Positions 6,127-62,004 of a DNA stretch of 64,000 bases are shown one piece after another (the stretch's first letter is position 1; each line of letters opens with the position of its first letter). The stretch covers positions 8,157,344 to 8,221,343 of the forward strand of contig OZ020487.1 of NCBI GenBank assembly GCA_963971405.1. The letters run 5' to 3'. Both the position numbers and the translations under genes were made by a program. Under the pieces are notes generated by a model. It ran no database searches. It saw only the letters and a program-made list of their open reading frames with translations, and had not been told where the DNA came from. Source of the stretch: Psococerastis gibbosa (taxonomy: Eukaryota > Arthropoda > Insecta > Psocodea > Psocidae).

Positions 6127-6447
6127 GGCGGGGTTTCCACCGACCTCTCATTGCAGAATGCACATGACATTGACGGAAATTTTTGTTTTACTCTATGCCA
6201 TAGTTAAAATTGATCAATGATCATAGAGTAAAATCACAAACAAACTAAAATTAAAAAATGGCGTCATGGGATATATTAAGTACAAACATTTTAATAGATT
6301 TCTATAAAAAGAAAAAGTTCAAATTTCCGTCAATGTCATTTGCATTCTGCAATGAGAGGTCGGTGGAAACCCCACCTAAGTCTTGAATGTCTGCTACCAC
6401 GTCAACGTATGTGCATTCTGCAATGAGAGGTCGGTGGAAACCCCGCC
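6127..6447. mobile_element. foldback MITE F1 (asymmetric composite)
   Basis: The inner hairpin runs from GGCGGGGTTTCCACCGACC to its complement ending near 6376. It is followed by TAAGTCTTGAATGTCTGCTACCACG and a second GGTCGGTGGAAACCCCGCC end at 6447. The left outer arm is missing, so the composite is lopsided. The central part (GATCAATGATCATAGAGTAAA, then a GGCGTCATGGGATAT segment) is shared with most larger family members. Confidence 0.8.
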
Positions 6448-6539
6448 TACGGCAATGTTCTGCCTCTGCTTTCCTCCCTATACAATAGTATACTTAAGCA
6501 CATGTCCGGTACCGTAATAATATACAATATATTATAAAT

Positions 6540-6785
6540 AAGGCCGGTAACAGTGAAAAGTAAGGGGAAATGCGGGGTTCAGGGACAAAGATTTTAAAAA
6601 AAATGTACAATTCAGCAGGCAGGCATGACAACAGAACCGGCGCAGTAAGCTTCTGCGCACTTGACCTGGCAATCTTAATAGCTTTATTGTGACTGTAATT
6701 AGCTTTTGACAAGATCCTCCAACCTTCGTCACCACTTTTAGCCGCTTCATTGTTTACACTGAGGACGCTCATCTTACCGGCTTGA
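6540..6785 (+). repeat. Rep-D, interspersed repeat
   Basis: Similar to 42390-42575 in the same orientation: both contain AGCAGGCAGG, AATAGCTTTAT, GTGATTAGCTT-like and TTTGCCGCTTCATTG-type segments. Non-coding; class not determined. Confidence 0.5.
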
Positions 6786-9153
6786 TTGAGCGTACCCTAG
6801 AGTCCGGTTCTCGCGGATGATCATGTGGGAAATTCGCCATTGGAGCAAATGGTTTGATGCAAAACCCTACATAGAAGATTTTTGACGCTGGCTTGAGGCA
6901 ATGTCCCATCTCTCCTGTTTCTTCATCGAAAATTCTAATACTTCGGGATCAAGAAGTAGGTACTTACTTTCTAGCCAACGCTTGGCAAGGCCAGGTTAGC
7001 CATTTGGTGACGTGCTGACCAGTATCTCCTTGCTGTCTCCCGGAAGATTCCGTCCGTTTGGTCTTCCCTGTCTTATACCAGGGCTGGACACTCGGGTAGA
7101 TGTTCTGCATTCGTTTCGCCTTCGTTACACAGGGGAGAGATGTCCTAAGCAAGGACCCCGATGCGATGCAGGTGGGAAAGAAGATAGTCGTTGCCGGTGG
7201 TGGTCCTGAAGACAGGAACCCTGACTGCCCTCGGCCGGGACCGAGGTATTGGCGAGGCAATAAGGGTGGCCCAATTTTTTCCTGTGCTTGTATGCCTATG
7301 GCGGTTTCAGGTCCATGCCCTAACAGCTCTGCCTATGGTGGATTTAGCGGAGATGTACGACAGTGTACTGGTCTGCTGCTCCAATGTAGTGGGATCAAGA
7401 AGTCGTGGCATTAGACAATAATTTGTTGAGACGATATTTGCCATAGATGTTCAGTAGGCCAGGAAGTATCTTACAAACAGCTCTAGCCCTACAACCCTGA
7501 AGTTCAGGTAATAGGCTACGCACCAAAACGCAGAAATAGGTTGATTGGAAGAGTGAGAAATGCCTCTAAATAGCTGAAAGGGGGGTAAGCAAATTGCTGA
7601 GTATCGGAGAGGAGTTAATTAACCAAGACGGCTTTCTCCTGCTTAATTACTTTCTTTCAACCGCGACGCCCCCCCCCCCTCTTTTTGTTTAGCCTAGCCG
7701 ATCTTTTGTCACTTTCCCTCAGGCAAACTGATTTTATGTAAATATTATTTGCATTAATTGTTTTCAAATGGCAATTTAATTACTTCTTTGAAGCTTTTCA
7801 GCGGTTTGCTAAAATTGGATCCTGACCTGGGGTGGATGTAGCTTTTCATAAAAAACGAAGTGTTCAAATATGCAGTCTTTTCTTTTAAAAATAAAGCTTT
7901 ATTGGGATAGGCTATAACAAACAAATAAAACAACTCGTATCTACTGTGAATTGGTATGATCAACAAGAATAGCCCATACTGTAACTTTCGTAGGCTGGCA
8001 TAAAATTAAAAAAAAAAAACTTAAGTAACCAGCAGCCCTATTATGTCGATTTGGGATTAACATAACACCGGGGTTTATTCAATTGTTTTAAACAAATGAG
8101 TGCAAAATGCGCGGGAAATTCATTCATAAATTAATCCTCGGCTATATTTTTGGTGAGTTTAAAATTTTCTCTTCCGTAGATGTAAACACATAAATAATTA
8201 AAACTCTTCTTATGTTACAAAATTCTACCTGTACATTTTAATGAATATTAGTATTCCCTTTAATTATTATACAATGCAACCATTCTCTTGTATTCCAATA
8301 ATTTATTTATTTTAATTTCCCGAGCATATTTTAACACCCCGGCATTATGTTACTCCCAAATCGCCCGCAGATATAATTAGAAACCTTGGGCGGGAAACCA
8401 TCCGACCCTAACTAACAGATATCTATAATCATACTTGTAACCAATCACACAGTCTCACAACTTCACCGCATTTGCTGAAATTCGAGACTTCACTAGCCAA
8501 TATTAGAATGGTTAATATAAAGACACTATTGCAAACAGGATTGAACAGGCCTAGATTTACATCCTACATCCAATCTTAGACATGAAAATCCTTGCGTTTA
8601 AAGCAAAAATATCTCAGATTATGCCAGTATTTCCCATTACACAAATAAAAATTATTCATCAAACATAATATGGAGAAACTTCCAATTGAATGAATTGCCT
8701 GTCAAACATGTAATAGGACGTTTAGTGGGATGTTTATCAACAGAGGAAAACAATATAAAACAACCTTTAGTAGCTGAAGCGGTTCCAAACTATAGGTCTC
8801 GAGTAACTCTTTTCAAAAACTTGGATGTAGGCTTATTTGTATGGCATGATTGTATAAAAGAAAAATACATTAAGGGGGAGATTTTAAATTATTTTGTAAA
8901 CCTTTTGACGAAATTAATTTAGAGGAAGGCACCCCTGGATAATCCAAAAATAGATTGGTTTAGCTTTTTGATTTAATTATAAAGTTTTGGTCCACTCCAA
9001 TGGTAGAGGACTATTTCATACACCCTACTATAAGGGGTTCCATCTAGGAGCTAGGTATTTTTAACTAGTAAGTTCTCTTTGGTGTGTAGCGTTATGAAAA
9101 AGGTTGGAAACCGCTGCTAAACTGTACGTACCTATCAAAACTTCTGGCATAAG
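6786..9153. other. intergenic stretch between the upstream exon's gene and OPLAH
   Basis: No convincing gene. 7010-7410 is richer in G/C and has overlapping open frames on both strands, possibly an old retrotransposon remnant, but I see no diagnostic motif. The remainder is AT-rich. The OPLAH 3' UTR probably occupies the right end. Confidence 0.35.
8972..8977 (-). terminator. candidate OPLAH polyadenylation signal (ATTAAA on minus strand)
   Basis: ATTAAA in the minus sense about 180 nt after the OPLAH stop at 9154. No AATAAA was noticed closer. Tentative. Confidence 0.3.
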
Positions 9154-9303
9154 CTAGACAGATTCCTGAGCTCGAAGGTACTCAAAGTATGAGCCTCTTT
9201 CCAGAAATGTTTCTTTTCTGTTTTTCTCTTGCACGTTGGTAGCAGCTTCATTTTCGAGTGCCCCATAGCCACCTCCTCCAGGTGTTTCCAGACGAAATAC
9301 GTC
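9154..9303 (-). CDS. OPLAH: OPLAH exon 20 (residues 1263-1311 and stop)
   Basis: Acceptor ATTTGTTGCAG; stops with TAG at 9154-9156. Begins [14 protein letters not shown], the conserved glycine run, and ends [12 protein letters not shown] as the family does. Confidence 0.94.
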   Translation of the reverse strand, partial: DVFRLETPGGGGYGALENEAATNVQEKNRKETFLERGSYFEYLRAQESV

Positions 9304-12300: not shown

Positions 12301-15300
12301 AGAGGAACATCGTGCCCAACAAGGCATCGTAGACAGTAAATAAGAGCCGACAGCGTAATGGCTCGCGGGGCATTGCAGTTCCCCCAAACTTCATGTCCGG
12401 TTCCACTGAAAGTAAAATGAAAAAGAAATTAAAAATAATGTAATGTATAATATACTTTAGTATAAGAACATAGCGAATATCTTTGAAAGTCCGTTTTCAG
12501 GTCACAACCGTGTGCTACAAATGCTACAAACTGGTTTCCAAATGGGGAATATGCTGCCAATTCGTTTTAAACTATAAGCTCTAAATAGCCTCGATACGAC
12601 TCTTCCCCGTATGCAGGTATATCAGAATCACTTATGCCTCTCTGTTGACTCAACATGGGACAAGTCAATACTGTAACTTATATGAAATCTACCAAAGCAG
12701 AACCTGTGTCCAAGTCAATATCAATAACCAGCTTAATCCGGCTACCGTCGTCCATAAAGTCCTCAGCCTCACTGCGACTCTTGAGTCTTCCCACTGTCTG
12801 TCAGAGTCACTTATGCCTCTCTGTTGACTCAATATGGGACAAGACAATACTGTAACTTATATGAAATCTACCAAAGCAGAACCTGTGTCCAAGTCAATGT
12901 CAATAACCAGCTTAATCCGGCTACCGTCGTCCATAAAGTCCTCAGCCTCACTGCGACTCTTGAGTCTTCCCACTGTCTGTCAGAGTCACTTATGTCTCTC
13001 TGTTGACTCAATATGGGAAAAGACAATACTGTAACTTACGTGAAATCAACCAAAGCAGAACCCGTGTCCAAGTCAATATCAATAACCAGCTTAATCCGGC
13101 TACCGTCATCCATAAAGTCCTCAGCCTCAATGCGACTCTTCCCCGTGTCTGTCAGAGCGCGCTGCCCGATTTCCCTCAGCATATTCCTGACTGCTGACTC
13201 AGCGTTGTGCTGAATATGGGACATATACGCCTGGACTACGTCAAGCCCATATTGCGCTATCAGCTCCTGGACTAGTATTATTCCCTGAAGAAAAATCAAC
13301 AAACTTCATAATAATAATTTTTATTATTATTCTACTTACTTATCACACTTAACGTGTCCGGGCCTATGACAAGTTGCTCCAAAAAGTTGCGTCCTGGATG
13401 ACCTTGCCACTGGCTTCGAGAAGATCCAGGTGGTACATTTCTTCACGCCTCGAGCCTTCGAGCCTACCTTCTAAAATGTGTTTAGTTTTGCTTAGACTAT
13501 TCACAATTTTTTAATGTTTCAGAATTGGTATTAGTATCTTCTCACCTGCAGCCCTAGCAAGATCAATAGTAGTTGACTCACCCAGTGGCTTACTTACTGT
13601 ATATAAGAAATAAACAAACGGTTATGTTACCGATTTTTGATAGGATAGGGTAAGACGTGGCCGTGGCAGCAGTCAGATTAAACTTTTATTAGTTGTTCGA
13701 AGTTAAGTCAAAACGTTTACCATCCACAATATCCGCACGCAACTGATTTATGTTCAATTTTACATACTAGGCAGGTTAAACATTACCACTGGCTTCCAAT
13801 ATAAATTGATCAAAAAAACCCTTTGCTTACAAATAATTCAAACCTAATTCTACCTTTAAACCATGGTGGAGCATTAGAAAGGTATCTTATAGGTATAACC
13901 TAATGGTTTATGTTAATTATGTCATTGTTTGTATTTACCCTTTGGTTTGCAGCAATTTGTGCCTTCAAATCCGACAGGTTATCAGCCAGATTTCTGGTCC
14001 CTGAACAACCTGGTACTTGTCCTGGGCTCATCAATGCCGCCACAAGAGCCTCTTCCTGAAAAACGCCTCTGGAAACTATCTTGAAGCTCCAAAACGCAGC
14101 TCCCTCTTCGGCCAAAGTCTTGCTGTGAGGGGGCATAGAGCCAGGGGTGCTGCCGCCTATGTCTGCGTGATGTCCACGACTTGCGACGAAAAATACGGGC
14201 TTGTCTATGCCACTGCAACAGTAGAATATACACATGAACGTTCGATGCAGGTGTCAGCAGCTGAGAACTTTGTCATTATATATGAGTTTGGTGAATGATT
14301 GGTGCAAAACCACAGAGTCTGCTTCAGAAGGTTTATCTGCGTGAGGTCAGTGACGAAAATCTGTTAAAGTAGACTCTGGGGTATCGCACCAACCCATTTG
14401 CTCCCACAGCTCTCACAGCAAATCGCCGGCGTTCGAATCGTCCGAGTGTACTAGGCCTAACAATTAGAGCAGCACTAGCCTGCTTTGCTGGAACGAGCAT
14501 TTCGAAGATAATCTTAAATTCTAGAATACTTTATTGAGAGTGTCTACAATCTTGTCTTGAATGCTAGCGATGTCAATCACTTTACCACACAGCTTATGCA
14601 TAGCCAATCTGAAGTGAAGTTGGGTTTGGGTCTCAACAGATAGATAGGTAACGTTTCAAAAAGCTTCACCATAGCTTGTGAAAACACAGTGCATCTTGTT
14701 GGAATCTCTGACTTCCAGCAACTAGTCAAAGAGAACAATCTGTATCCTGCTGTTGTTATGATCGACGACCTCAATGACCGTGTACATGATAGAGACTGCC
14801 AAGAACCTGTCAGAATGAGCAAACACTTGCAGGGCTGTTGAGTGGCTACGGTTTGGGAACAAATGATACCGAACTAAGCAAACTAACTAAGTAAAAAAAG
14901 AACTAAATCAAGGGTATGGAGGATCGTTGAACCCCTATGCGAAGGCAGAGAGTGACGTACAAGAAACCGCCTAAATAGACACAATACTCAACGGAGAAGA
15001 GATAGTCCGGTTTATAAAAGCGCAACGCATAAGATGGCTGGGATACGTCGTAGGAATGCCAAACGACCGCATGCTGAACAAGATGTACAAAGCAAGCATG
15101 ACAGGAAGACGACTTGCGGGACGTCCTCGAAAACGCTGGAAGCATGAATTGGAATCTGACCTTCGCGAGTTGGGAGTCCACAGGTGGTGGAGCGTTGTAC
15201 ATAACCGAGATGACTGGAGGAGTGTTCTCTAGCAGGCCAAAGCTCATCAGCCAGAAGAAGAAATCCAGGGGCTACCACAGCAGATACCTGAACTACCCAT

Positions 15301-21300: not shown

Positions 21301-24300
21301 AATATTTAATCATTATAATAATAATTTAAAGTTATATTGTGAGTACAGCCTCCTACATTGTGAAATAAGACCATAATGTGTGATATATACGCAATGCAGA
21401 ATACAACGAGCACACAACATTTGTGCCGTTAGGAGGGGGGGGGATAGGTGTTGTTTTGGTTAACTGCTATCAGGGCCCGTCTGTTAACGTATTAAAAAGG
21501 GGCGTTTTAATTTATAGGGAATATATTGTAATCTATGTGCTTACGATTCCATGGGAGTGAGTCCACCGTCACTTTGCATAAATAAAACATTAATGCCTTC
21601 CAAATTATTCTTAAAGCCAGAAGAGAATCCCTGTAACAAAATGTAAGCAGCTATTAAAATTTTTCTAGAAGTTATTAAAATACTAACTTCTAAAATCGAA
21701 ATATTCCGCATCATAAACACAATCACAAATTGTAGATTGCACTTACATTGTGTACAATGGTAAGAGTTGCACTCAGGCTAGCCTTTCTGACCCCTCTGCG
21801 GGCGCTAGATAATGGTTTGCTTAGGCGCGGTTTCCACCAAACTCTAAGTGCAAAATACACATACGGTGACGTGGTAGCAGTTATCATTAACAAAGACCTC
21901 TCATTGCAGAATGCAAATGACATTGACGGAAATTTTTGTTTTACTCTATGCCATAGTTAAAATTGATCAATGATCATAGAGTAAAATCACAAAGAAACAA
22001 ACTAAAATTAAAAAATGGCGTCATGGGATATGTTAAGTAAAAACATTTTAATAGATTTCTATAAAAAGAAACATTCAAATTTCCGTCAATGTCATGTGCA
22101 TTCTGCAATGAGAGGTCGTCGGAAACCCCGCCTAAGTATTGAAAGTTTGCTACCACGTCACCGTATGTGTATTTTGCACTTAGAGGCCGGTGGAAACCGC
22201 GGCTTTACACACGGTACAGACGTCTTCTTTCCTTACGTTTCCTCGACGATTTCGCCAGCTGTCGTGTAGCTGACCGGACAAAACTGCACGGATTTCCCTC
22301 GTAGACACGCACCAAACACGCGTCAACGTCACAAATTTTTCGTAAGTGCGTTCAGAAATTAACTCTTTGCACCAACCTATCACCAGCCCATATTTTGTTC
22401 CCTTGATAAATTTCTCAGCGTCTCACGTCGCGTGGAACGTTCGTGTGCACCGGGCCTATACTAAACATTGGCTGTATCGTTCTCTACTGTGGCGATTACG
22501 TTTAAACTTATTCTGAGGTTGGGATTGTGAACGGGACAATACTGAAAAACAAAGTGATACCCTATAATTGTTCCGTTTACATTTTAGGCCCCGAGTGGGT
22601 TGGGAGCATAGAATAAATATTTACTGTTAGGGAGTGATCGCCATACCCTTGGTATATACATTACGTAAAAGGACATTGTCCTGTTGTAATATAGTACTTT
22701 TCCAAAATAAATAAATAAATAAATAATTCCATGGCATGGAACAACAATAGCCTATGTGCCCTCCAGATTTTAATGGTCAAAACGATTGTCGTAACAAAAA
22801 ATGCCCCATAAACAGAGCAAGCTTAATTGCAGCATTATATGATATAACTGAATATTACTGAAACCACCTTAGGCTGAAGAGACAACATCCTCGTTATAAC
22901 CGAAATTAGAGAATCTAGAAGAAAAAAATGATTTTTCTAAATCCCCTAATTTCAGCTAGAGGCGGCTTACTTTTGTCTTTATAGCGTAGGTCAGCAGGTC
23001 GGTCAAGAATATAAAAAAAAGGCAGACGAAAATGGGAGGATAATTTCTGCAAGTCATACCTGTAAATATTTCTTAATGTGTGGAGTAAGATAAGCATCGG
23101 CGGTAGCAGTGAACCCCCGTGGCACAATGCGCAGCATAGGCATCACCTGATGCGAAAGCGAAACATGCGCGAAACCCACTTCTTCGGCAATCTGGCCCAC
23201 TTTGACTTCATCATCAGCATAGGCGTAGCTGTGCATTAGAACGACGGCCAGAGAGTTTATCCCTGTAGTCTTCAATTCCTTTAATTGCTGTCTTAGCTTC
23301 TCTTCGTCCAATGGTTTGGCACAGAGAAGAGTTTCTTGGGTGACTGCCTTGACCTGCAATAAATAAATAGGTATCCTCCTTGCAGCTGTAGTGGTTTCAT
23401 AGGAAAGAATAGGTATCCCAATTGTTCTATATGGTATGGAGGGATGGACATTGATCGAAGCTATGGAGAACAGAATCATTGCATTTGAATTGTGGATAAA
23501 TAGACGAATGCTGCGCATAAGGCCAACGGCCATACCATGTTGAATCCATTAGAGCAGAGCACGTTTCAAACTGCGGCAAACTTGGTGGTGTGTACAAAGT
23601 TGGCAGGGACACATGGTGGGACATGATAACGCGCTGAGATTATACCAGTCAGTCTACACTCAACGTGCGTGTCGAGTCCACGTCACCTCCGATTAAATAG
23701 TGTGACTTTACCATGTTCCCCAAGTGGTTCGGAATCAACTATAATCAGGAGGTCCACCCTGTCAGTCAACTCCCCTTTCCCCGAGGTGAAAGAGTCTGCC
23801 CTTAGGGTGCCTCAAGTTAACAAACAGACTGACTCCCCCGACAGGCTGACAGGATTGTTTAAAGCAGAAATGCTGAAACAGGCGTAGGAAACAATAACAA
23901 CAAAACAACAATAGTGGATATCTTGGAAAGATCGCGTCTCTTATGCCGAGGTTTTGAGGCGCATGGATACAAATCCCGAGTAGCTGCTGTTGGATAAGAA
24001 ACGGATGTGATGAGGAACGCAGAACATCATCTTCTGCATTGTATAATTTAAGGGAAGACAGAAAGAGTGACGGCTCCCAGCAGAAGAACATCCTGGTAGA
24101 AAAACCTGCGGTTGTGGTTTAGCAAGAGTACGACGAACGAACAAGAGTACGACGAACGACGACAAATGACATTGACGTGGTAGCAGACATTCAAGACTTA
24201 TTAATGATATCAGCTCCACGTCAATGTCATTTGCATTCTGCAATGAGAGGTCGGTGGAAACCCCGCCTTAGGAGAAGCTGTATATAAGAATGATGACCAG

Positions 24301-27149
24301 AGAGTTTAACACTCTTATAGTCTCCAACTTCTTCAGCCGCTGTATAAGCTCATCATAGTCCAATAATTTGGCAGCTATGAGAGTTTCTAAGATGACTATC
24401 TTCCTCTTCAATAAATAAATAAACACAAGTCTTTTAATATTAACATACATACCTGTTTCCATGGACGAGTCCCGGAGAAGTTTCCCTCGAAAACTTCACT
24501 GCCGGTCGCTGGAGCGTCGGTTGCAATGTCTGCGAATAGGAGATCATCCGGACGGAAAGGCACTACGCGACAGTCAACTTCTAATACAGCTGAATATAGA
24601 ACTTCTGGGGTTTCTACAGCCTGAAAAATATTTATTAATTACCAAAGAGTAAGGGATTTCTTATGTAAAAAACCTAAATAATGAGAAATGTTGTGGAAAG
24701 GGCTAAACATCGAAACATTAACGACTAATGGGGTTCATTTGTGACGTCATTTTGTAGATGGCACTGATGGCAGCACCAGTTGCAATGATATCAAAGCGTT
24801 GATTTTTCCATAAGCCTCAATACTATTTTAAAATTATTTTTAATTACGTATTATTTTAAAGCGATATTTTTCTATAAATCATGGAAAATATATATATTAA
24901 ATTATATGCAGCGAAATAAGGTCCAGGCATAGTAAAAATATTATAAAAAATATTAAAAGAATTAATTAGATACTAAGAGCTTAGTTTTCACATGCAAACG
25001 GCGGCCATTTTGAATAATATGGATATCGGTTTGTCGTCAGCGAACCTAGTTTTGGTTATAATTCAGCTGCGGGACTACTATGCCGCTTAGTATTAACTTA
25101 TTCTTCGGGTTAACAATGTAAACAAAACAATTTGGAATAGAAATTGTCCGTTCTAAAATTATCTTGTTTACATTTTTAATCCCAGGTTAGGTTTCAAATA
25201 ATCGCCATAGTAGGCCCGCTGAAGGCACTTTCTATGGTGACTATTCCTTTGATAAGCACAGCTTACAGCAGCTGTAATCTATAATTTTACTAACAATTAC
25301 GAATTACTATAGCCAAGTCATACAGTCCCACAATCAATTTTATAGGGTTTCTTACGACCTCCGCAACAACTAGTTTACTTACCAAGTCAAAAATTTTAGG
25401 TCTTGCTTGGTTCCCTATGTACAGCAAATCCCTGAAGCCCTTTGTTATCAACAGAGCTATTTTTTCACCTTTTCTTTCCAGCAACGCATTTGTAGCCACT
25501 GTAGTGCCCATCCTTATCCAGTCGATGTCTTTCCCATCAATGGGATCTTCAGCAGGATAGTTGGTACCGGTTTCCTGCACATAAAAACTAGTTAGGTGCC
25601 CATTCCATTGACCGGCTAGGGCTATTTCCAAAAACGGTGACGTGGTAGCAGACATTCAAGACTTAGGTGGCGTTTCCAATGACCTCGCATTGCAGAATTG
25701 ACGGAAATGTTTATTTTCCTCTATGCCATAGTTAAAATTGATCAATGATCATACAGTAAAATCACAAACAAACAAACTAAAATTAAAAAATGGCGTCATG
25801 GTATATGTTAAGTACAAACATTTTAATATATTTCTATAAAAAGAAAAATTCTAATTTCCGTCAATGTCATTTGCATTCTGTAATGGGAGATCGGTGGAAA
25901 CGCAACCTAAGTCTTGAATGTCTGCTACCACGTCACTGTTTTTGGAAATAGCCCTAGCCGGTCAATGGAATGGGCGCCTAATGATTACATGGGCAACGTG
26001 GGGTACAATTTTAATGATACGAATTGGCGCTCTGACAATAGCTATTTATTGTCAGGACATGTAGAGTAATGGTAGCCTACGGCTTTTCATCCGAAAGACT
26101 GTTGGCTCGAGTCCCACACTTGGCCAATTTTCTGGCCACACTCTGGGGAGGACAATGCTGGCCAGTGATCCCGGGCCTTCCTAGTGTAAGACAGGGCGTT
26201 ATAACTTATAGTCGTACCAAAATTCATTACTTATTAATTTATTCGTTAATAAACCATTCATTAATGGTTTAATAGCTGAGTGGAGCTTACAATGGCTGAT
26301 CTGCGGTTTTTGCATGCATAGCATACAAGAATACAGGACAGTATTACATTGGCAAAAATAGTATCTAGCAGGTAGGGTGGATCCACCCCTATTGGGGGGG
26401 AATAACTGACGACCCATCAATAGATTTGATTTAAAAAAATTTGGAGGGGCTACCTGCAACCGTCCTTGCTCGTAGACCATAGAATAGAATAGAATAGGCC
26501 TATCTCTGTATTGAGTCATAATATGAAACAATAGGTGTTCTAAAACCTAAGACACAATAACAATTAGTCAATAAATTGATAAATAAATGAAGCACTTAAA
26601 AATAGCCTAGAGCAATATATTGTACCTATAGAATCATGAATACCAATATACCTATAGAATCATGAATACCAATATACCTATAGAATCATGAAAAGAACAC
26701 CAGCTGTCTAGTTCCACATTATGTCCTCCACATATAAACATTGCTCTACGAGGTGCCTCTTTAGCTTACTTTCTTCCACCTCCCTAATGTTCCTAGGCAG
26801 CCCTTGTAAGTATCTAGCACCTGCATAAGCTAGTTTACGCTCATACCTACTGGTTCTAGGCATAGGGATCACGAGATCATCCCTGCCCTTACTACCATAG
26901 GCATGAGTGTCACCGAGCCTAGGCAAGGTGCCATACACCATTGCTACTGCTTCCTCCTTAGCACAGTTCCCTGGAACTTACCAGTTCCAATATGCGGCGA
27001 ATGCCTTCTCTGGGCGCGTCGGGATAGTTACTCGGATCCACAGACAGCAATTTCATTACGCGGATTTTGCCAGAAGGACAACGAGCGTAAACATCGGTGA
27101 AGGTACCTCCCCGATCTATTGCAAACTGGAATTTTTGGTTGGGCGTCAT
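9154..27149 (-). CDS. OPLAH: 5-oxoprolinase (ATP-hydrolysing), complete 20-exon gene
   Basis: The enzyme hydrolyses 5-oxo-L-proline to L-glutamate with ATP, in the cytosolic gamma-glutamyl (glutathione) cycle. Twenty coding exons with GT-AG junctions and compatible phases join into 3936 nt (1311 residues plus stop); the human protein is about 1288. The N-terminal HydA-like half carries [11 protein letters not shown] (residues about 10-20) and a second [10 protein letters not shown] phosphate-binding type motif (about 337-347). The [19 protein letters not shown] and [16 protein letters not shown] blocks follow. The HydB-like half begins around [19 protein letters not shown] and contains [31 protein letters not shown] and [13 protein letters not shown]. 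It ends YLRAQESV. The ATG at 27149 gives the family's usual short N-terminus. Exons, 5' to 3': 27149-26982, 25574-25383, 24620-24453, 23353-23060, 21630-21545, 20974-20773, 19489-19112, 18736-18535, 18130-17911, 17168-17030, 16421-16144, 15728-15581, 15480-15368, 14212-13939, 13284-13040, 12405-12294, 11421-11197, 10796-10553, 9631-9534, 9303-9154. No frame break was found. Introns hold MITEs, LINE pieces and exon duplicates. Confidence 0.96.
9534..9631 (-). CDS. OPLAH: OPLAH exon 19 (residues 1230-1262)
   Basis: Acceptor AATTGTTTTAG, donor GGG|GTAAGG. Encodes [20 protein letters not shown] followed by [11 protein letters not shown]. Confidence 0.92.
10141..10228 (-). repeat. SINE family S1, 3' part
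   Basis: Minus-strand match to the 3' part of the full copy at 54650-54845: AGGGCTTATAGCCCTGACTC, GCTAGATTGGCTTAGTAATA and an AATATTTATT tail. Lies in OPLAH intron 18. Confidence 0.6.
10553..10796 (-). CDS. OPLAH: OPLAH exon 18 (residues 1149-1230)
   Basis: Acceptor TCCTGTTGCAG, donor AGG|GTGAGT, phase 1 out. Contains [20 protein letters not shown] and [14 protein letters not shown]. Confidence 0.95.
11075..11175. mobile_element. partial GGACGGATCCAGCC-family MITE
   Basis: Shares ATTACGCTCCAATTTAATCGA with 51872-52036 and a C-run followed by AAATGGGCT. One end only. In OPLAH intron 17, 22 bp from the exon 17 donor. Confidence 0.4.
11197..11421 (-). CDS. OPLAH: OPLAH exon 17 (residues 1074-1148)
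   Basis: Acceptor TGCTTTTAG, donor GCT|GTAAGT, phase 0. Contains [17 protein letters not shown] and [12 protein letters not shown]. Confidence 0.95.
12294..12405 (-). CDS. OPLAH: OPLAH exon 16 (residues 1036-1073)
   Basis: Acceptor TTTACTTTCAG, donor CAG|GTACTG. Encodes [20 protein letters not shown] and [16 protein letters not shown]. Confidence 0.93.
12597..13012. repeat. tandem 179-bp units copied from OPLAH exon 15 3' end
   Basis: Units at 12655-12833 and 12834-13012 repeat the sequence starting at 13013, which is the end of exon 15 plus the first bases of intron 15; a further partial unit precedes them from 12597. The last ~95 exon nucleotides are recognisable. In both extra units the splice donor reads ATAAGT where the working copy has GTAAGT, and the last exon base is also changed. 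The array lies wholly in intron 15. Confidence 0.85.
13040..13284 (-). CDS. OPLAH: OPLAH exon 15 (residues 955-1036)
   Basis: Acceptor TTTTTCTTCAG, donor CAC|GTAAGT, ends phase 2. Encodes [19 protein letters not shown] and [18 protein letters not shown]. Its 3' part plus donor is repeated in tandem downstream (12597-13012), where the donor is mutated. Confidence 0.95.
13939..14212 (-). CDS. OPLAH: OPLAH exon 14 (residues 863-954)
   Basis: Acceptor ACTGTTGCAG, donor AGG|GTAAAT. Contains [20 protein letters not shown] and [20 protein letters not shown]. Confidence 0.95.
14918..15250 (+). pseudogene. non-LTR (RTE-like) retrotransposon C-terminal fragment
   Basis: In the + frame it reads [40 protein letters not shown] and [20 protein letters not shown]. 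This is the conserved tail after the reverse transcriptase domain of RTE/BovB-like and related LINEs. A stop interrupts the beginning. It sits in OPLAH intron 13, antisense to the gene. A shorter piece of the same family is at 55430-55510. Confidence 0.75.
15368..15480 (-). CDS. OPLAH: OPLAH exon 13 (residues 826-863)
   Basis: Acceptor CTATTTCAG, donor AAG|GTAATA, phase 2 out. Encodes [20 protein letters not shown], a signature of hydantoinase B-type domains. Confidence 0.94.
15581..15728 (-). CDS. OPLAH: OPLAH exon 12 (residues 776-825)
   Basis: Acceptor TAATTTCTAG, donor CAG|GTACGA. Encodes [20 protein letters not shown] and [16 protein letters not shown]. Confidence 0.95.
15861..16101. 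repeat. small foldback in OPLAH intron 11
   Basis: The arms CAAAAGGCGATTTGTCA (about 15868-15885) and TGACAAATCGCCTTTTGC (about 16076-16093) are inverted, with about 190 bp between them. Probably a diverged MITE. Confidence 0.45.
16144..16421 (-). CDS. OPLAH: OPLAH exon 11 (residues 684-776)
   Basis: Acceptor ATATTTACAG, donor ACG|GTAGGT, phase 0 in, phase 2 out. Contains [18 protein letters not shown] and [20 protein letters not shown], the start of the HydB-like half. Confidence 0.95.
17030..17168 (-). CDS. OPLAH: OPLAH exon 10 (residues 637-683)
   Basis: Acceptor TGACTTTCAG, donor AAG|GTATAT. Encodes [20 protein letters not shown], then an acidic Ser-rich linker between the two enzyme halves. 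Confidence 0.92.
17608..17735 (-). repeat. SINE family S2 (partial)
   Basis: Matches 41150-41312, 47937-48098, 61650-61775 (all -) and 27240-27435 (+): GAGGCGATTGAAGAGGTTAG then GCGATTAACC in the minus sense. In OPLAH intron 9. Confidence 0.6.
17911..18130 (-). CDS. OPLAH: OPLAH exon 9 (residues 564-637)
   Basis: Acceptor TATTATTTTCAG, donor TAG|GTAAGT, phase 1 in and phase 2 out. Encodes [16 protein letters not shown], a strongly conserved family block, which fixes the frame. Confidence 0.92.
18535..18736 (-). CDS. OPLAH: OPLAH exon 8 (residues 497-564)
   Basis: Acceptor TATTTTTTTCAG, donor AAG|GTATTG, ends phase 1. Contains [18 protein letters not shown] and [14 protein letters not shown]. 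Confidence 0.93.
18785..18870 (+). repeat. SINE family S3, tRNA-derived
   Basis: Contains GGCGTAGATCGTGGGTTCTA, a B-box-like promoter segment, followed by ATCCCGCT and a tail AAATCCTCTAATTTCGG shared with 49632-49770 and (tail only) 22930-22965. Not a functional tRNA: no cloverleaf with acceptor stem. Confidence 0.55.
18985..19111. repeat. local duplication of the OPLAH exon 7 end and donor
   Basis: TCTCACCTGAGTCAAAGCTC occurs at 19106, where it is the end of exon 7 with its donor, and again at 19028. ATAAATAGGTTATGG occurs at 18988 and 19052. The extra donor copy is intact (CAG|GTGAGA), but extending exon 7 to it would hit an in-frame TGA three codons after the normal end. Confidence 0.8.
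19112..19489 (-). CDS. OPLAH: OPLAH exon 7 (residues 371-496)
   Basis: Acceptor TATTTTTCAG, donor CAG|GTGAGA, phase 0. Contains [37 protein letters not shown] and [10 protein letters not shown]. Its 3' end with the donor is duplicated 78 bp downstream. Confidence 0.95.
19718..20020 (+). pseudogene. non-LTR retrotransposon 3' end fragment
   Basis: Open on the + strand and ending in [43 protein letters not shown] and [14 protein letters not shown]. The Cys-His arrangement (CPFC...HLFSC) is the zinc-binding tail found after the RNase H or RT region in many LINEs. In OPLAH intron 6, antisense to the gene. Confidence 0.65.
20380..20588 (+). pseudogene. related non-LTR retrotransposon tail fragment
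   Basis: Ends in [14 protein letters not shown] then TAG, matching the terminus of 19718-20020 ([14 protein letters not shown]). EHLASCP recalls the zinc tail. The 5' part has drifted. Also in OPLAH intron 6. Confidence 0.55.
20773..20974 (-). CDS. OPLAH: OPLAH exon 6 (residues 303-370)
   Basis: Acceptor CTTTTCAG, donor CAG|GTATGA. Contains [16 protein letters not shown] and [16 protein letters not shown], the second nucleotide-binding type motif. Confidence 0.95.
21545..21630 (-). CDS. OPLAH: OPLAH exon 5 (residues 275-303)
   Basis: Acceptor TTGTTACAG, donor TC|GTAAGC, ends in phase 2. Encodes [14 protein letters not shown], the conserved FMxSDGG block. Confidence 0.93.
21824..22204. mobile_element. 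foldback MITE F2 (composite, distinct outer arms)
   Basis: Outer arms GGCGCGGTTTCCACCAA... and ...TGGAAACCGCGGCT continue through CTAAGTGCAAAATACACATA and ACGGTGACGTGGTAGCA on both sides. Inside is the GACCTCTCATTGCAGAATGC hairpin with the common core. The inner left end has lost its GGCGGGGTTTCC tip. TTA flanks both ends. In OPLAH intron 4. Confidence 0.8.
23060..23353 (-). CDS. OPLAH: OPLAH exon 4 (residues 177-274)
   Basis: Acceptor TTTATTGCAG, donor CAG|GTATGA, phase 0. Contains [14 protein letters not shown] and [18 protein letters not shown] decayed duplicate of its first 45 codons lies upstream in intron 3 (24271-24405). Confidence 0.95.
23530..23890 (+). repeat. Rep-B, SINE-like repeat (longest copy)
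   Basis: Includes the 5' section (CATACCATGTTGAATCCATT, GCGGCAAACTTGGT, GACATGATAACGCGCTGAG) and the 3' section shared with 1310-1567, ending in an AACAATAACAACAAAA tail. In OPLAH intron 3... boundaries with exon 4 leave about 175 bp of unrelated sequence. Confidence 0.65.
23990..24130 (+). pseudogene. non-LTR retrotransposon fragment
   Basis: Shares AGAAGAACATCCTGG and AAAAACCT...GGTTTAGCA-type sequence with 56635-56690, i.e. the RRTSWLKNLRQWF region of that LINE family. Broken by stops. In OPLAH intron 3. Confidence 0.5.
24165..24267. mobile_element. foldback MITE F3, left-truncated
   Basis: Contains CGTGGTAGCAGACATTCAAG and the right end GAGAGGTCGGTGGAAACCCC-GCC at 24267, followed by TTA. 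The left outer arm is missing. Its right end abuts the decayed exon 4 copy at 24271. Confidence 0.7.
24271..24405 (-). pseudogene. decayed duplicate of OPLAH exon 4 (first 45 codons)
   Basis: On the minus strand, after a TTTATTTATTGAAG acceptor-like sequence, 45 codons stay open: [20 protein letters not shown] then [12 protein letters not shown]. Aligned to exon 4 ([31 protein letters not shown]) about 20 of 45 residues agree, and the ATAAATAAATA intron tract before it is shared. It has no donor: it stops where MITE F3 begins. I infer an old tandem duplication of intron plus exon 4, later cut by the MITE. Confidence 0.8.
24453..24620 (-). CDS. OPLAH: OPLAH exon 3 (residues 121-176)
   Basis: Acceptor TATTTTTCAG, donor CAG|GTATGT, phase 0. 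Encodes [16 protein letters not shown], matching the family's PEVLYEEVLEVDERV-type block, then a variable acidic segment. Confidence 0.93.
25383..25574 (-). CDS. OPLAH: OPLAH exon 2 (residues 57-120)
   Basis: Acceptor TTTATGTGCAG, donor TTG|GTAAGT, phase 0 at both ends. Contains [19 protein letters not shown], a family hallmark. A composite MITE ends only 20 bp upstream of this exon in intron 1. Confidence 0.95.
25595..25978. mobile_element. foldback MITE F4 (full nested composite)
   Basis: Outer arms GGTGCCCATTCCATTGACCG and CGGTCAATGGAATGGGCGCC, then CTAGGGCTATTTCCAAAAAC, GGTGACGTGGTAGCAGACAT and TCAAGACTTA. Inside is a second hairpin, GGTGGCGTTTCC (target altered) to GGTGGAAACGCAACC, with the common core. 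Same architecture at 37475-37858, 43099-43478, 53452-53838 and 54936-55315. It ends 20 bp upstream of OPLAH exon 2. Confidence 0.88.
26050..26235 (+). repeat. SINE family S1 copy
   Basis: GTCAGGACATGTAGAGTAAT, CCGAAAGACTGTTGGCTCGA and CCGGGCCTTCCTAGT match the copy at 54650-54845. GGCTCGAGTCC is a B-box-like motif. In OPLAH intron 1. Confidence 0.6.
26622..26695. repeat. short tandem repeat, 27-bp unit
   Basis: AATATACCTATAGAATCATG repeated about 2.7 times in OPLAH intron 1. Confidence 0.75.
26708..26941 (-). pseudogene. non-LTR retrotransposon RT C-terminal fragment
   Basis: Minus-strand open frame of 77 codons: [20 protein letters not shown] then [20 protein letters not shown]. This resembles the end of CR1/Jockey-type reverse transcriptases (PLPRT...G.K.WNSLP...R). 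In OPLAH intron 1, ending 40 bp from the exon 1 donor, same strand as the gene. Confidence 0.6.
26982..27149 (-). CDS. OPLAH: OPLAH exon 1 (residues 1-56)
   Basis: Starts at ATG and carries the [18 protein letters not shown] motif region. It ends CTG|GTAAGT in phase 0. A possible 5' UTR exon cannot be excluded. A SINE lies 90-290 bp upstream. Confidence 0.95.
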
Positions 27150-31530: not shown

Positions 31531-31635
31531 GTTTTTCTATGGACTTTTGGGGAAATACCTATGCATACCAATATTTGTATGCCAATTTATGGAATCATGT
31601 CAATTTGTGATGGTTGAATCTGAAGCTGATGGGTA

Positions 31636-36500: not shown

Positions 36501-36530
36501 GCTGCTTGTTCCGTTGTCGAGGGTCACCAA

Positions 36531-37474: not shown

Positions 37475-37858
37475 GGCGCCCATTCCATTGACCGGCTAGG
37501 GCTATTTCCAAAAGCAGTGACGTGGTAGCAGACATTCAAGACTTAGGTTGCGTTTCCACCGATCTCGCATTGTTGAATGCAAATGACATTGACGGAAATT
37601 AGAATTTTTCTTTTTATAGACATCTATTAAAATGTTTGTACTTAACATATCCCATGACGCCATATTTTAATTTTAGTTTGTTTGTTTGTGATTTTACTGT
37701 ATGATCATTGATCAATTTTAACTATGGCATTGAGGAAAATAAACATTTCCGTCAATTCTGCAATGCGAGGTCGGTGGAAACGCCACCTAAGTCTTGAATG
37801 TCTGCTACCACGTCACCGTTTTTGGAAATAGCCCTAGCCGGTCAATGGAATGGGCACC
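37475..37858. mobile_element. foldback MITE F5 (full nested composite)
   Basis: Same structure as F4: GGCGCCCATTCCATTGACCG outer arm, GCAGACATTCAAGACTTA, inner GGTTGCGTTTCCACCGATCT to GGTCGGTGGAAACGCCACC, core in the orientation opposite to F4. Flanks TAA and TAC. Confidence 0.88.
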
Positions 37859-40242: not shown

Positions 40243-40667
40243 GGTGCCCATTCCACATACGTACAACGTCAATGAAAATTATGAAATTGAAGGACATTTC
40301 AATTTCTCATTGATGGGGGCCATTCCATATGTTTCTTCAAAAATTGACAATTTTCAATTGAAGCGTATACGCCAAATTTTTGAAATTTGTTTGCATTTGT
40401 TTCTTGAAATTGTATTTGCTTTCTTCGTCGCCTTATTATAATTTTTAAACAGAAATGCTTTCTTTTTAGAGAAATCAATTAAAATGGTTGTACTTGTCAT
40501 ATCCCACGACGCCATTTCTTAATTTTAGATTGTTTGTTTCATTGTTTGTGATTTTACTCTATGATCAATTGATCATTGATCAATTTTAACAATGGCATAG
40601 AGTAAAATTGAAATGTCCTTCAATTTCATAATTTTCATTGACGTTGTACGTATGTGGAATGGGCGGC
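40243..40667. mobile_element. foldback MITE F6 (different arms, common core)
   Basis: Arms GGTGCCCATTCCACATACGT / ACGTATGTGGAATGGGCGGC continue into CAACGTCAATGAAAATTATG. The core keeps the CATATCCCACGACGCCATTT and GATCATTGATCAATTTTAAC segments of F4/F5, but the arms differ. Flanks TTAA on both sides. Confidence 0.85.
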
Positions 40668-43098: not shown

Positions 43099-43478
43099 GG
43101 TGCCCATTCCATTGACCGGCTAGGGCTATTTCCAAAAACGGTGACGTGGTAGCAGACATTCAAGACTTAGGTGGCGTTTCCACCGACCTCGCATTGCAGA
43201 ATTGACGGAAATGTTTATTTTCCTCTATGCCATAGTTAAAATTGATCAATGATCATACAGTAAAATCACAAACAAACTAAAATTAAAAAATGGCGTCATG
43301 GGATATGTTAAGTACAAACATTTTAATAGATTTCTATAAAAAGAAAAATTCTAATTTCCGTCAATGTCATTTGCATTCTGCAATGCGAGATCGGTGGAAA
43401 CGCAACCTAAGTCTTGAATGTCTGCTACCACGTCACTGTTTTTGGAAATAGCCCTAGCCGGTCAATGGAATGGGCGCC
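43099..43478. mobile_element. foldback MITE F7 (full nested composite)
   Basis: Near twin of F4, arms GGTGCCCATTCCATTGACCG to GGTCAATGGAATGGGCGCC, inner hairpin GGTGGCGTTTCCACCGACCT. Confidence 0.88.
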
Positions 43479-44620: not shown

Positions 44621-44748
44621 GGCGGGGTTTCCACATACGTCAATGGTAAATGTGGTATTGACGTTTTAGCAGACATTAAAGACATACTAAAAATGTCTGC
44701 TACCACGTCAAAACAATATTTACCATTGACGTATGTGGAAACCCCGCC
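44621..44748. mobile_element. foldback MITE F8 in the BRI3 3' UTR
   Basis: 128 bp, almost all hairpin: GGCGGGGTTTCCACATACGT, CAATGGTAAAT(G)T, then TTTTAGCAGACATT, and the complement. It starts 33 bp after the BRI3 stop, so it is likely transcribed in the 3' UTR. Confidence 0.85.
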
Positions 44749-44909: not shown

Positions 44910-47900
44910 CTGCAAAGAAATAATATACAAATTGTCAGTAAATTTAAATTGAAGGGTTAGATTTAGTCATCATCAATAATCAGCACTATTTTCTCGGGTG
45001 TGATATGTGAGCCTCCTCTACTCCCTCTTGTATCTCTACTTCGGATTATTATACACTTCTTCTGGTACCAGATCGACGTTTCCGAGATTGATCTCAGTCT
45101 GGTTTCTGTATTACATCGTCTTCCTTTTCGTGTTCCCTCTATACTTCCTTCAGCCGTTTCCTCGCGTTGCCCATTTGCTTTACGAGTATCATTGGCGGTT
45201 TTCTCGGGTGTGATATGTGAGCCTCCTCTACTTCTGTCTCTCTACTTCGGATTATTATACACTTCTTCTGGTACCAGATCTACTTTTCAGAGATTGTTCT
45301 CAGTCTAGTTTCTGTATTACATCCTTTTTCTTCCTTTTCGTGTTCCCTCTATACTTCCTCCAGCCGTTTCCTCGCGATATCCATTTCCTTTACGTGTATC
45401 ATTGGCTGTATCAGTGGCTATGCTTCGGAGGGCATGTAAAGCAGGCGGTCCCGGGTCCTCCTAGTTGAGTGTTAGAGAGGGCTTAGCCCCGCTAAGTTGG
45501 CTTAGTAATAGAACAAAAATTCAATATTTATTCATCCCCTCTACCAATGGTTCTTTCTCCCCAAACTCTCTTCTCATCACTTCATTTCTAATCCTGTCCC
45601 TTCATGTTCTCAGTTTTCTTGTCTGCTGTTCGTAACCACTGTCGCGAAACTGAAGGTTATAAATAACGTTTGCTTAGTTGATTTGGGTACTTTGTCATCC
45701 CAGAGGAGAAATTTTACTTGATGTACCTGTAGTGATTATTAAAAGAAGTAGTCATTCAACAGTGCCAGAATGGGGGGACACTTTTAAATAATATGGTTAC
45801 TGTTCGCCTAATTAATATCTTGTACAGTTGCCAGATTCAACTTGCCCCGTTTCCCACTTGCAATTGCCGTGCACGTGGGCTCAGGCGGCTATTCCACCGA
45901 CCTAGTTTTGCAGCGTGACATTGACGTGGTAGCAGACATTAAAGACCACGTCAATGTCACGCTCACGCTGCAAAACGAGGTCGGTGGAATAGCCGCCTCA
46001 CTTCTGAGATACTTGAACACATCCTCCGGTACTGCTCAGCCGCTTGCACGCAACGGGACATATGACGCCATCAGGATGGACTCAATGATGGCGGGTTCCA
46101 CAGGATCCTATCTACTCCAAGGATGTGGGCTATAGCAGAAAGGACATTTCAGTAGTAACATAGTAAGGGTTTTACTATTGTATTATATTATCAATTGTTT
46201 ACCTTGAGAATGTTGATAGAATAATCCTCAAGGGTTATACTAGATCAAAATTTTCAAGGTCAAAAATTGATGGTATAACCGCTATTCTGTTACTACAGTT
46301 AATTTCTGAGACAAGGCAGTCGGAATCATCTGAGCTGGAAGTCATATACTGTGAAGTAAGTGAGGGGTTTGTTTGTTTGTTTCCAACGCCTGCTTTCAGC
46401 ATTTCTGCATTAAGCAACCCTTTCAGCCTGGCGGGGGGAGTGAGTCTGTTTGTAAACTTTAGGCACCCTAAGAGCAGACTCTTTCACCTCGGGGGAAGGG
46501 GAGTTGACTGACAGGGTGGATCTCTTAATTATAGTGGATTGCAAACCACTTAGAGAACATGGTAAAGTCACACGATTAAATCGGAGGTGACCAGGACTTG
46601 ACACGCACGTAGACTGACTGGTATAGTCTCAGCGCGTTATCATGTCCCACCATGTTACCCTGCCAACGCTTTGCACACTACCAAGTTTGCCGCAGTTTGA
46701 AACATGCTCTGCTCTCATGGATTCAACATGGTAAGGTCGTTGGCGAGTAGTAGTATGGTTGGACACAGTCCCAGGCCACGGTGTGGGCCCATAGGACAGC
46801 GGACCTCCTATATAGTGGACTCCGAACCACTTGGGAAACACAGTGAAGTCACACGATTAGTTCGGAGGTGACCAGGACAAGTCCTACCATGTTTCCCTAC
46901 CGGCACAACCAAGTTATCTGCATTTTTGAACCGGCTCTGGTCCGCTGGATTCAACTTGGTAAGGCGGCCGGCCCGTTGGCGAGTAAGTAAGTGATGTTAC
47001 CTTGTGAAAAACGGAACAGTTAATTATGCCCAAAACAACAGACTCCAACCCGGTGCGAGTTTTCAAATAGGTTATTAGATACTTACACGACAATTGGGAC
47101 ATCCACCAACAACAACGACGGTTGGATCGGTCACATCATGAGGAATAATCACAGTGGTAGCTCCATAGTATCGTCCGTTCTGTGGTGGCACGTAGGGTTG
47201 TCCAGAGGGTGGCACGTACGGTCCATATCCAGGAGGAACTTGTGACGGATAACCGGAGGCTGGTTGATGAACGTATGGGGGCGGCCCTAAAATAAAAGAA
47301 CCCCGGTATTAGGCAGGTAACCGTATTCTATGGAGTCACGCACGCAACCCTTAGGCTCAATATCCTGGAAGAGATGAAAGATACCTAAACCTTAATTAAA
47401 ACACTTAGTCTTACTCCCTTACCCATTACACATAGGCTGCATTACTAACCCAGCTACTAACATAACTTAAGCTAACTGACATGACCTACCTAACTAATAA
47501 TATAGAATAACTGACTAATGACGATCCCTGTAATTAAGTCACACATGGCAAATGCCCGTGGTTATAGAATTTTCTTTTTATAGTATATACCTAGTATAAT
47601 ACTAAAAAACAATTAAAGAACTTGAGAACGGGGGCTGCTTGATGAAAGAACAGGGGCGGCCCTGAAATAAAACCTCCCCAGCATTAGGTAGATTACCGTA
47701 GGTCAGATTAAGGCATGAGTTCCCGTGTGGTGACACGCACGGTGGCCCAGACAGTACTAAGGTTATTACTCTGGTAAAACTTGTGAACGGGTAACCAGGC
47801 TGGTTGATGGAATTTCCACACTCCTTCTCACCGCAAATTCTGGGTGGGGCGGCAAATAGGCTGTAGCCTAAATGCGGTTAATATAGACCCTGCCTATTAT

Positions 47901-48721: not shown

Positions 48722-57605
<8,884 letters not shown>

Positions 57606-59890: not shown

Positions 59891-59891
59891 A

Positions 59892-60031
59892 GGCGGCTAT
59901 TCCACCGACCTCGTTTTGCAGCGTTAGCGTGACATTGACGTGGTAGCAGACATTATTAATAAGTCTTTAATGTCTGCTACCACGTCAATGTCACGCTCAC
60001 GCTACAAAACGAGGTCGTTGTAATAGCCGCC
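59892..60031. mobile_element. foldback MITE F15
   Basis: GGCGGCTATTCCACCGACCT, CGTGACATTGACGTGGTAGC, complement. TAA on both sides. Confidence 0.88.
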
Positions 60032-60439: not shown

Positions 60440-60580
60440 GGCGGGGTTTCCACATACGTCAATCGTCAACGAAAAATATGGTTTTGACGTGGTAGCAGAA
60501 TTTTTAGTATTTCTTTAATGTATGCTAAACCTTCAATTTCATAATTTTCATTGACGATTGACGTATGTGGAAACCCCGCC
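60440..60580. mobile_element. foldback MITE F16 (mosaic arms)
   Basis: Left half has GGCGGGGTTTCCACATACGT then GACGTGGTAGCAGA; right half has CTTCAATTTCATAATTTTCA, the arm of F6, before ACGTATGTGGAAACCCCGCC. The middle therefore does not pair with itself. TAA on both sides. Confidence 0.85.
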
Positions 60581-60591: not shown

Positions 60592-61640
60592 ACCTCATAG
60601 CCCCCATGACGTATGGCTGCGAAACGCAAATTGATGTCCGCTATGTATAGACCAATAAACAAACGTCAATTTTTAAATGTTTGATTGGTAATTTCACTTT
60701 TTCTGTGCACAACAAACATGAATCAAGTTTATTGCAGTGCAAAGTACGAATTTGTTTTTTCGTTGTGTTGAATCGATACTACCTATTGCAAATACCACTC
60801 ATAAGGCACAAATGGCGGATGCCTGATGACACTTCTTTGTATTTGAAACTTTATTTCAGCTAAATAATAAATAAATGTATGTAGACCATATCTTCAGAAA
60901 CTCAATAAGATTAAATTTAACAGTAAATGTTATGCATCGTTAGACGATTTCATTAGGTTTTGCATTCACTAGTCGCCATTTATAGCAGTCATTAAACTAT
61001 TAGCAAATTTGTTATGCATTTGACTTATATTCAATGTATTGACTCGCTGGTTAAGTCATGCTTTCGCCTGTTACACTGCGCCAATGGTAAGCTTGTCTCA
61101 GCTTGCCCATTATCGCTTGTAGCCGGTGTAAGTAGACTTACCAGTGGGCCAATGGCCAAAAATTCATTTGGAAACATTACAAATCATGTCGGAAATCCAT
61201 GGGGTCGTTGGCATTGGACGAGGGACCAATGGCCTAGGTCTAGGTCCATAAAAAGCCCTTCAGGACATTGTTATATGTGTACACACCGTTTATTGTTCAT
61301 GTTCATTTAATTGTACCTATCATTGTATTTTCATCATTGTAAACAATCTTTAATTTCATGGGAAATTTTAGTTGGTTTCTGTTCATAATGAGATCATAAT
61401 CGCACATGTATTAAGTTACGATCTCTTAAGGTTTTATGTAAAATTATGTATATAATTCTGCTTCTTTAATAAATTGAATGACAATTCTTTGTTTTGGAAT
61501 ACTTTTCCTTCGCCTAGAGTAGGCTACGGAAGCATGTGGTCTGCACCTAGCCAATGAAGCATAAGATAACAGTTGGAAGTGGGAAAGGTACAGTCTAGTC
61601 TTAGGAAATCGTTGTCAAAAGCAATTAGACTACTTTTTTT
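60592..61640. other. AT-rich intergenic stretch
   Basis: No conserved peptide or repeat recognised. Short open frames only. Confidence 0.35.
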
Positions 61641-61649
61641 TTAATTAAA

Positions 61650-61775
61650 GGTAATTAATTGCATACCAACAACTGAATGTATGTATCCGGGTGACATCTT
61701 CGGTAGGCCCACCCGTGTTGAATTACCACACGCCTCCGATCACTTGGCGAGTTGAAACTCGCATAATCCAAGCAC
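61650..61775 (-). repeat. SINE family S2 copy (diverged)
   Basis: Minus-sense AATCGGAGGCGTGTGG-like and ATTAATTACC ends correspond to the other copies. Confidence 0.5.
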
Positions 61776-61788
61776 GCTTCTACTTTTA

Positions 61789-62004
61789 GGCGGCTATTCC
61801 ACCGACGTCGTTTTTCAATGTGCATGTGCCACGACGTGGTAGCAGACATAATAAGTCTCTACCATATTATAACCTAATTTACAACAGATAAGTTATGTAT
61901 CTACATAATAGTCTCCTTAAAATATGGCAGAGACTTATTAATGATGTCTGCTACCACGTCATGACACATGCACATTGAAAAACGACGTCGGTGGAATAGC
62001 CACC
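61789..62004. mobile_element. foldback MITE F17
   Basis: GGCGGCTATTCCACCGACGT, CACGACGTGGTAGCAGACAT, loop with ATCTACATAATAGTCTCCTT as in F11. TTTA flanks both ends. Confidence 0.86.

Follow-up and report, generated by a model that had tools for sequence, protein, structure and literature searches.

The stretch of DNA analysed here, hereafter the window, comprises 64,000 nucleotides of the psocid Psococerastis gibbosa (contig OZ020487.1, positions 8,157,344 to 8,221,343; G000:C12:8157344-8221343 in our numbering), and the genome searched along with it amounts to 409,210,807 bases in 68 contigs. The window contains 30 open reading frames (ORFs) of at least 100 amino acids (aa) and a dense set of miniature inverted-repeat transposable elements (MITEs) with the shape of hairpins, which look like members of the PIF/Harbinger superfamily. 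The larger ones appear to be one element nested in another, the two arms of an element tend to vary together, and the target-site duplications (TSDs) frequently differ between the two sides. These elements had been noticed in a preliminary description made from the letters of the window, whose claims are taken up below where our results bear on them. Throughout, left and right flanks are separated by a slash.

Results

Hairpin elements, module and core

Seventeen hairpin elements (F1-F17; Table 1) were re-extracted from the window with their flanks, confirming the approximate number given in the preliminary description, and five simple ones, folded as single-stranded DNA, gave z-scores of -12.5 to -22.3. 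F3 had been listed there as a hairpin element as well; its right arm is present, its left end is not (Table 1). Each of the four terminus types named in that description was found exactly in the window.

The inner module, GTGGTAGCAGACATT, matched the window 27 times with up to three mismatches, against 1.62 matches expected, and none of 100 shuffles gave as many. All 27 matches lie inside F1-F17, and 16 of the 17 elements possess the module, F6 being the one that has none, in agreement with the earlier statement that nearly all elements share it. A common core had likewise been proposed for the larger elements, and is found in nine of the 17 (F1, F2, F4, F5, F6, F7, F12, F13 and F14) both with CATGACGCCATTTTT, allowing two mismatches, and with the core 12-mer GATCAATGATCA, allowing one; two more window matches of the latter (1-2 mismatches), located outside those elements, were disregarded. 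Genome-wide, the exact module occurs 26,337 times (13,090 + 13,247), and its reversed control 3 times (1 + 2). The elements cover 7.4% of the window and 8,577 of 200,000 bases (4.3%) in a sample of twenty 10-kb stretches taken at 2-Mb steps along contig 1, the library used for this estimate containing the sampled elements themselves as well as the hairpin of locus L048.

Table 1. Hairpin elements of the window, with positions in window coordinates.
Element	Position	Structure	Flanks or TSD	Divergence and remarks
F1	6127..6447	Core-bearing inner element and right outer shell, no left outer shell	TAA/TAC	13/13 terminal identity, inner left end combined with outer right end
F2	21824..22203	Composite, CGGT-type shell		17.6% from majority consensus of aligned set
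F3	24130..24267	Truncated simple element, right arm only		19-bp tandem repeat replaces left end
F4	25595..25978	384-bp composite, CCCA shell	TTA/TAA	2.1%
F4 inner element	25666..25907	Own termini	GACTTA/TAAGTC
F5	37475..37858	Composite, CCCA shell		Orientation opposite to F4
F6	40243..40667	Core in ARM1 (CATACGTACAACG) shell, without module	TAA/TTA (TTAA both sides)
F7	43099..43478	Composite	TAT/TAA	0.5%, flanks unequal nonetheless
F8	44621..44748	Simple hairpin, GGGT terminus, ARM1
F9	45884..45997	Simple hairpin, GCTA terminus	TCA duplication
F10	52037..52173	Simple hairpin, GGGA terminus, ARM2	CCT/TTA
F11	52209..52495	GCTA terminus, S2 interior, ARM6	TCA/CCA
F12	53452..53838	Composite	TAA/TTA (TTAA both sides)	1.0%
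F13	54936..55315	Composite, TTTAC shell	TTA/TAA	2.9%
F14	55951..56348	Composite, GGGA shell	TTA/TAA
F15	59892..60031	Simple hairpin, GCTA terminus	TAA duplication
F16	60440..60580	Apparent chimera: left inner arm F8-like, right inner arm F6/L045-like, outer ends matched	TAA duplication
F17	61789..62004	GCTA terminus, S2 interior

Apparently nested composites

The ends of the elements read GGYGNNNWTTCCA. The simple elements at hand are hairpins of 114-155 bp, in which the module together with a short loop forms the apex. In the commonest large form, of about 384 bp, the arms of the outer shell terminate in the module plus CAAGACTTA; next comes an entire inner element, which has termini of its own and includes the core, and then the shell in mirror image. 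Among 28 inner elements listed, 20 show junctions that are exactly GACTTA/TAAGTC, seven overlapping loci having been left out of this listing and of later comparisons; this inner junction, C-TTA/TAA-G, is the same kind of site that the family prefers for its insertions (see below). The simplest reading is that the 384-bp form originated as a MITE inserted in the apex of another MITE, the composite then being amplified as a unit. On this reading, F4-type elements would each enclose a second element. An origin of all copies from one long known element was rejected on the genome-wide module count and the inner-element listing.

On its minus strand, the core of F6 has an open frame of 53 codons, possibly left over from a transposon gene; against Pfam, the 53-aa product of this frame gave no credible match, the only one being RE_HaeII (E 0.045), which was taken as chance.

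Modular elements with mirrored arms

Single-linkage clustering of the 112 arms of 56 elements, with L048 left out, gave eight clusters, of which ARM0 is broad and holds 85 arms. The core is found in ARM0 and ARM1 shells, and S2, a second interior, in ARM0, ARM3, ARM5 and ARM6; the terminal tetranucleotides CCCA and GGGT are each found with ARM0 and with ARM1. Since the same core, S2 and tetranucleotides occur with different arm clusters, the parts have been recombined, and the earlier view of these MITEs as assemblies of reusable modules is upheld by the clustering of copies by arm type, the core not being confined to one cluster.

Within an element, both arms belonged to one cluster in 55 of 56 cases, and in 48 of 56 the two ends carried the same terminal NNNW. 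For 38 composites, arm distance was 0.056 within an element and 0.206 between elements, and none of 20,000 permutations was as low; the CCCA group alone (n = 28) gave the same outcome, with 0 of 20,000 permutations. At column 34 of these 38 composites the arm pairs were A/A in 17, C/C in 17, G/G in 3 and gap/gap in 1, with no mixed pair. Furthermore, when 50 listed TTA/TAA copies were scored by eye (3 unscorable ones were dropped, and a few mutated arms were placed in the nearest state), the same variant was present in both arms of 41 of 47 elements, 13.8 being expected, and in 23 of 27 TTTCC shells, 9.9 being expected; the other 6, whose arms disagree, represent chimeras or intermediates changed in one arm. 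Shell types and subfamilies differ by mirror-image changes in both arms (the core-less composite L039:6718 was omitted from the comparison of shell types). These results suggest that new shells were founded with both arms changed together, and one-armed chimeras, such as F16, exist but are rare; F16 was recognized by comparing it by eye with F8 and L045.

For the origin of mirrored shells we consider arm-to-arm copying across the hairpin the most likely source: one arm would be altered or exchanged and then copied onto the other by fold-back or gap-repair synthesis, and the new palindrome would amplify afterwards. Alternatively, interiors may have been re-shelled, and probably one of these two processes was at work. 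The preliminary description had instead proposed that ordinary recombination, or else template switching, moves arms from copy to copy, a model in accordance with the recombined modules (the core with two arm clusters, S2 with four), with the chimera-like F16, and with the different variants in the two arms of 6 of 47 scored elements. That modules were recombined and that F16 is an apparent chimera stands. However, swapping of one arm at a time should leave many mixed elements and was not the rule: a shared cluster for the two arms was the case in 55 of 56 elements, and none of the 38 composites is mixed at column 34; we thus regard arm swapping as a tenable but doubtful account of the shells.

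Target-site duplication and superfamily

Across 58 elements, left and right flanks were identical in 53, 40 and 46 cases at three adjacent offsets, against 23 and 24 just outside, which establishes a duplication of 3 bp. Perfect flank pairs were found in 31 of 58 elements (shuffled mean 15.5, maximum 28 in 10,000). In 114 flanks of 57 elements the logo read T in 87%, W in 95% and A in 87%, followed by G in 40%, and 12 of the 26 imperfect pairs among these 57 elements were pure central A/T differences. For both sets the inner-only L032:4043 was dropped, the full F2 was used, and F6 and L024 were added; L048, a hairpin probably of another family with a perfect TTA duplication, was kept, and L020, whose right end is unverified, was scored as a mismatch among the 58 elements and left out of the logo. 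The flanks quoted in the preliminary description (TCA at F9, TAA at F15 and F16, TTAA at F6 and F12, TTTA at F17) are all present, and are mostly to be read as 3-bp TWA-type duplications. Beyond the TSD, this G is a weak preference and does not make up a full 9-bp motif; the maize PIF motif CWCTTAGWG turned up in no paper of the literature searched.

With their ends GGYGNNNWTTCC, a 3-bp TWA-type duplication and a very high copy number, the elements look like non-autonomous hairpin MITEs of the Tourist/PIF-Harbinger type, whose transposase would cut a 3-bp TWA target. Such a duplication is typical of PIF/Harbinger within the PHIS superfamily, according to PMC4482050. For Medicago PIF/Harbinger members, PMC2213677 used G(N)5GTT as the motif of the termini, which the GGCGGGGTT termini fit and the GCTA and CCCA termini do not. 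At least 150 of 220 candidates in the genome scored with the DDE_Tnp_4 profile, many of them in open frames; the matches listed were above the cut-off, five of them with one internal stop, and the profile also scored in one of 14 control genomes. Groups of these matches have identical scores and frame lengths (e.g., 384, 375, 382 and 328 aa), which suggests that PIF/Harbinger-type copying was recent in this genome.

Mismatched duplications

Composites were counted genome-wide as exact CCCA-type 13-bp ends lying 361-391 bp apart, so that the counts are lower bounds. Those flanked by TTA/TTA numbered 1300, by TAA/TAA 1250, by TTA/TAA 429 and by TAA/TTA 693, the reversed controls being 0 throughout. 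Hence, 1122 of 3672 exact-ended, TWA-flanked composites (30.6%) have a mismatched TSD, a proportion below the 50.2% expected if both sides were independent (chi-square 574), and the duplication is therefore real but unfaithful. Mismatches also occur in copies of low divergence, namely F4, F7 and F12 (Table 1). A paralogous empty site adds to this picture: the insertion at L042:6096-6472 is flanked by TAA/TTA, and its counterpart in L033 has TTA; since the empty site reads TTA, the left copy of the TSD in L042 is the foreign one.

A carried overhang could produce this pattern. The excised element would keep the 3-nucleotide overhang of its old site, which would be ligated in opposite the three nucleotides of the target instead of being removed and filled in. 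Donor and target would differ at W in about half of the moves, giving a heteroduplex junction, and random repair of the A:A or T:T mismatches would then leave TTA/TAA or TAA/TTA in 25-33% of insertions; with unbiased repair, the model gives 25% mismatched duplications after one move and 33% at equilibrium, and 30.6% was observed. For mPing, PMC4561436 proposes that the transposase cuts the two strands at staggered positions inside the TSD, so that overhangs are left, and PMC11254759 has excised mPing carrying its donor TTA/TAA into Cas9 cuts. We advance tentatively, at somewhat less than even odds, that the PIF/Harbinger-type transposase acting here would join a carried donor overhang at the new site with no gap-filling.

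Other features of the window

A Ty3-type long terminal repeat retrotransposon occupies positions 31635-36829, and its pol frame, which is open, runs along the minus strand; the two 300-nucleotide repeats of the element (31635-31934 and 36530-36829) are identical, and this match between the copies suggests a recent insertion. Two separate minus-strand ORFs, 18521-18907 and 23054-23533, match hydantoinase/oxoprolinase families and are probably exons of one gene, F2 being situated between them; another minus-strand ORF, 25290-25655, resembles them by eye and extends into F4. Tandem arrays are formed by a 179-bp unit repeated about 2.9 times (12617-13153) and by a 210-bp unit repeated twice (44989-45406). 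Poly-G/poly-C runs of about 10-20 bases are numerous in the window and in loci L031-L050, several of them within dispersed repeats.

A separate repeat family with the end ACGTCACTACGCAAGAACTC is present at 39802-39956 of the window, at 1049-1068 of L024, and in L036, L037 and L044. One of its copies appears to interrupt an F6-type MITE in L024, and the interpretation of this locus as a longer F6-type element was accordingly rejected. Hairpin elements with unrelated termini were seen at L048 1106-1368 (GGCCCGTATTACACTGTC, with the TTA duplication mentioned above) and L035 3978-4094 (GGCGCTGCGTAGACTTCG). Scans of the window with Rfam, at gathering scores, and with ARAGORN gave no matches, nor did an exact search of viral_contigs for TGACGTGGTAGCAGACATT.

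Discussion

The best explanation of these data combines four parts: PIF/Harbinger-type hairpin MITEs, nesting of one element in another, arms mirrored by copying across the hairpin, and a donor overhang carried to the new site. Taken as a whole, we give this reading a probability of about 0.6. Several observations weigh against one or another of its parts. The DDE_Tnp_4 candidates are known from their own matches, and none is tied to the termini of the MITEs; the TTTCC (n = 17) and TTTAC (n = 10) groups lack excess arm similarity (2009 and 4192 of 20,000 permutations, respectively). As to the carried overhang, a single empty site, that of L042 and L033, is informative, the alignments of L038, L045 and L037:1615 being ambiguous, and the flanks of L038:611 hold 4 extra bases that a 3-bp reading does not explain. 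Once q, a and b are left free, the carry model has as many parameters as degrees of freedom (three each) and is saturated, so that its perfect fit proves nothing and the range of 25-33% is the sole prediction; for the asymmetry between 429 and 693 copies, A:A and T:T would have to be repaired unequally, unless some other process was involved. Finally, the data of PMC11254759 concern end-joining into Cas9 cuts, and when mPing with TCA/TCA flanks was mobilized in yeast (PMC4561436), TTA or TAA was the target of 45 of 46 insertions and TCA of the remaining one, from which carried overhangs would not seem to be the rule for mPing in yeast.

The main rival to the carried overhang is a variable length of the TSD. 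The duplication would usually measure 3 bp, and at TTAA sites sometimes 2 bp, giving TTA/TAA, or 4 bp, giving TTAA/TTAA that is read as TAA/TTA, with nothing being carried. The TTAA on both sides of F6 and F12 fits this proposal, as do the inner junction of the composites, CTTA/TAAG, which would also result if 2 bp, TA, were duplicated within CTTAAG, and the unequal sizes of the two mismatched classes. However, TTAA is present on both sides in only two of six TAA/TTA elements (F6 and F12, not L005, L018, L030 or L042), the clean empty site, C-TTA-AAT, fits one changed base in a 3-bp duplication, and the pairs TAT/TAA and TAA/TAC, which also occur, are underivable from TTAA. We regard a variable TSD length as rather unlikely.

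The TSDs of old copies decay, and a high copy number offers ample substrate for recombination, so mismatched duplications could also be mutated ones or the result of flanks shuffled between copies; this is very improbable, as mutation alone, which we rejected, would need 18.8% of A/T flips per central base against a total divergence of 0.5-5% in the aligned CCCA composites, and shuffling would require an exchanged flank in about 60% of copies (30.6% over 50.2%). Most improbable is that these are TTAA-specific MITEs of the piggyBac or Kolobok type, superfamilies suggested by the TTAA at F6 and F12 and rejected because flank identity shows a duplication of 3 bp instead of the 4-bp TTAA one.

Hairpin MITEs of the PIF/Harbinger type are a known kind of element; what seems new is the composite and mirrored modular structure at such a scale and, above all, the one in three TSDs mismatched at W. 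In the literature searched, which is no proof of absence, neither W-mismatched TSDs of natural origin in large numbers nor a mirrored replacement of MITE arms was found to be described; non-matching TSDs have been constructed on purpose (PMC4561436). Surveys demanding perfect TSDs would discard the mismatched copies: the Medicago survey (PMC2213677) accepted only TSDs without mismatch, and under such a filter these copies can go unseen. If overhangs are indeed carried, more than 1000 natural insertions would preserve traces of a transposition step for which the literature consulted relies on excision assays and on experiments with Cas9, and past donor sites would be partly readable from the genome. 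The mirrored arms provide natural data, and in large amount, on the ways in which palindromic MITEs gain new ends, and bear on the origin of MITE subfamilies.

Among known systems, the NuwaII group of the PHIS superfamily, with the target C/TNA/G (PMC4482050), resembles the present family in its 3-bp TNA duplication. Here, a G comes after the TSD in 40% of outward-read flanks and the nested junction is C-TTA/TAA-G; in contrast to NuwaII, the flanking C/G is a weak preference and no rule. A donor overhang used as proposed here recalls piggyBac, in which the overhang is retained and joining is synthesis-free; unlike piggyBac, our elements have a 3-bp TWA instead of a 4-bp TTAA duplication and other termini, and none is a member. 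Foldback elements share the hairpin architecture and the mirrored arms, whereas the elements described here are short, of few fixed sizes, and make a 3-bp duplication. The closest resemblance in several traits is to the Tourist-like PIF/Harbinger MITEs, such as mPing with Ping and Pong, which have the 3-bp TWA duplication, short terminal repeats beginning with GG, and amplification as MITEs; their DDE_Tnp_4 transposase is presumably of the kind that served our elements, to which it is not linked. Unlike Tourist-like MITEs, the elements of P. gibbosa are nearly complete hairpins, form nested composites and vary their terminal tetranucleotide in mirrored fashion, and about 31% of the exact-ended, TWA-flanked composites are bordered by TSDs that do not match.

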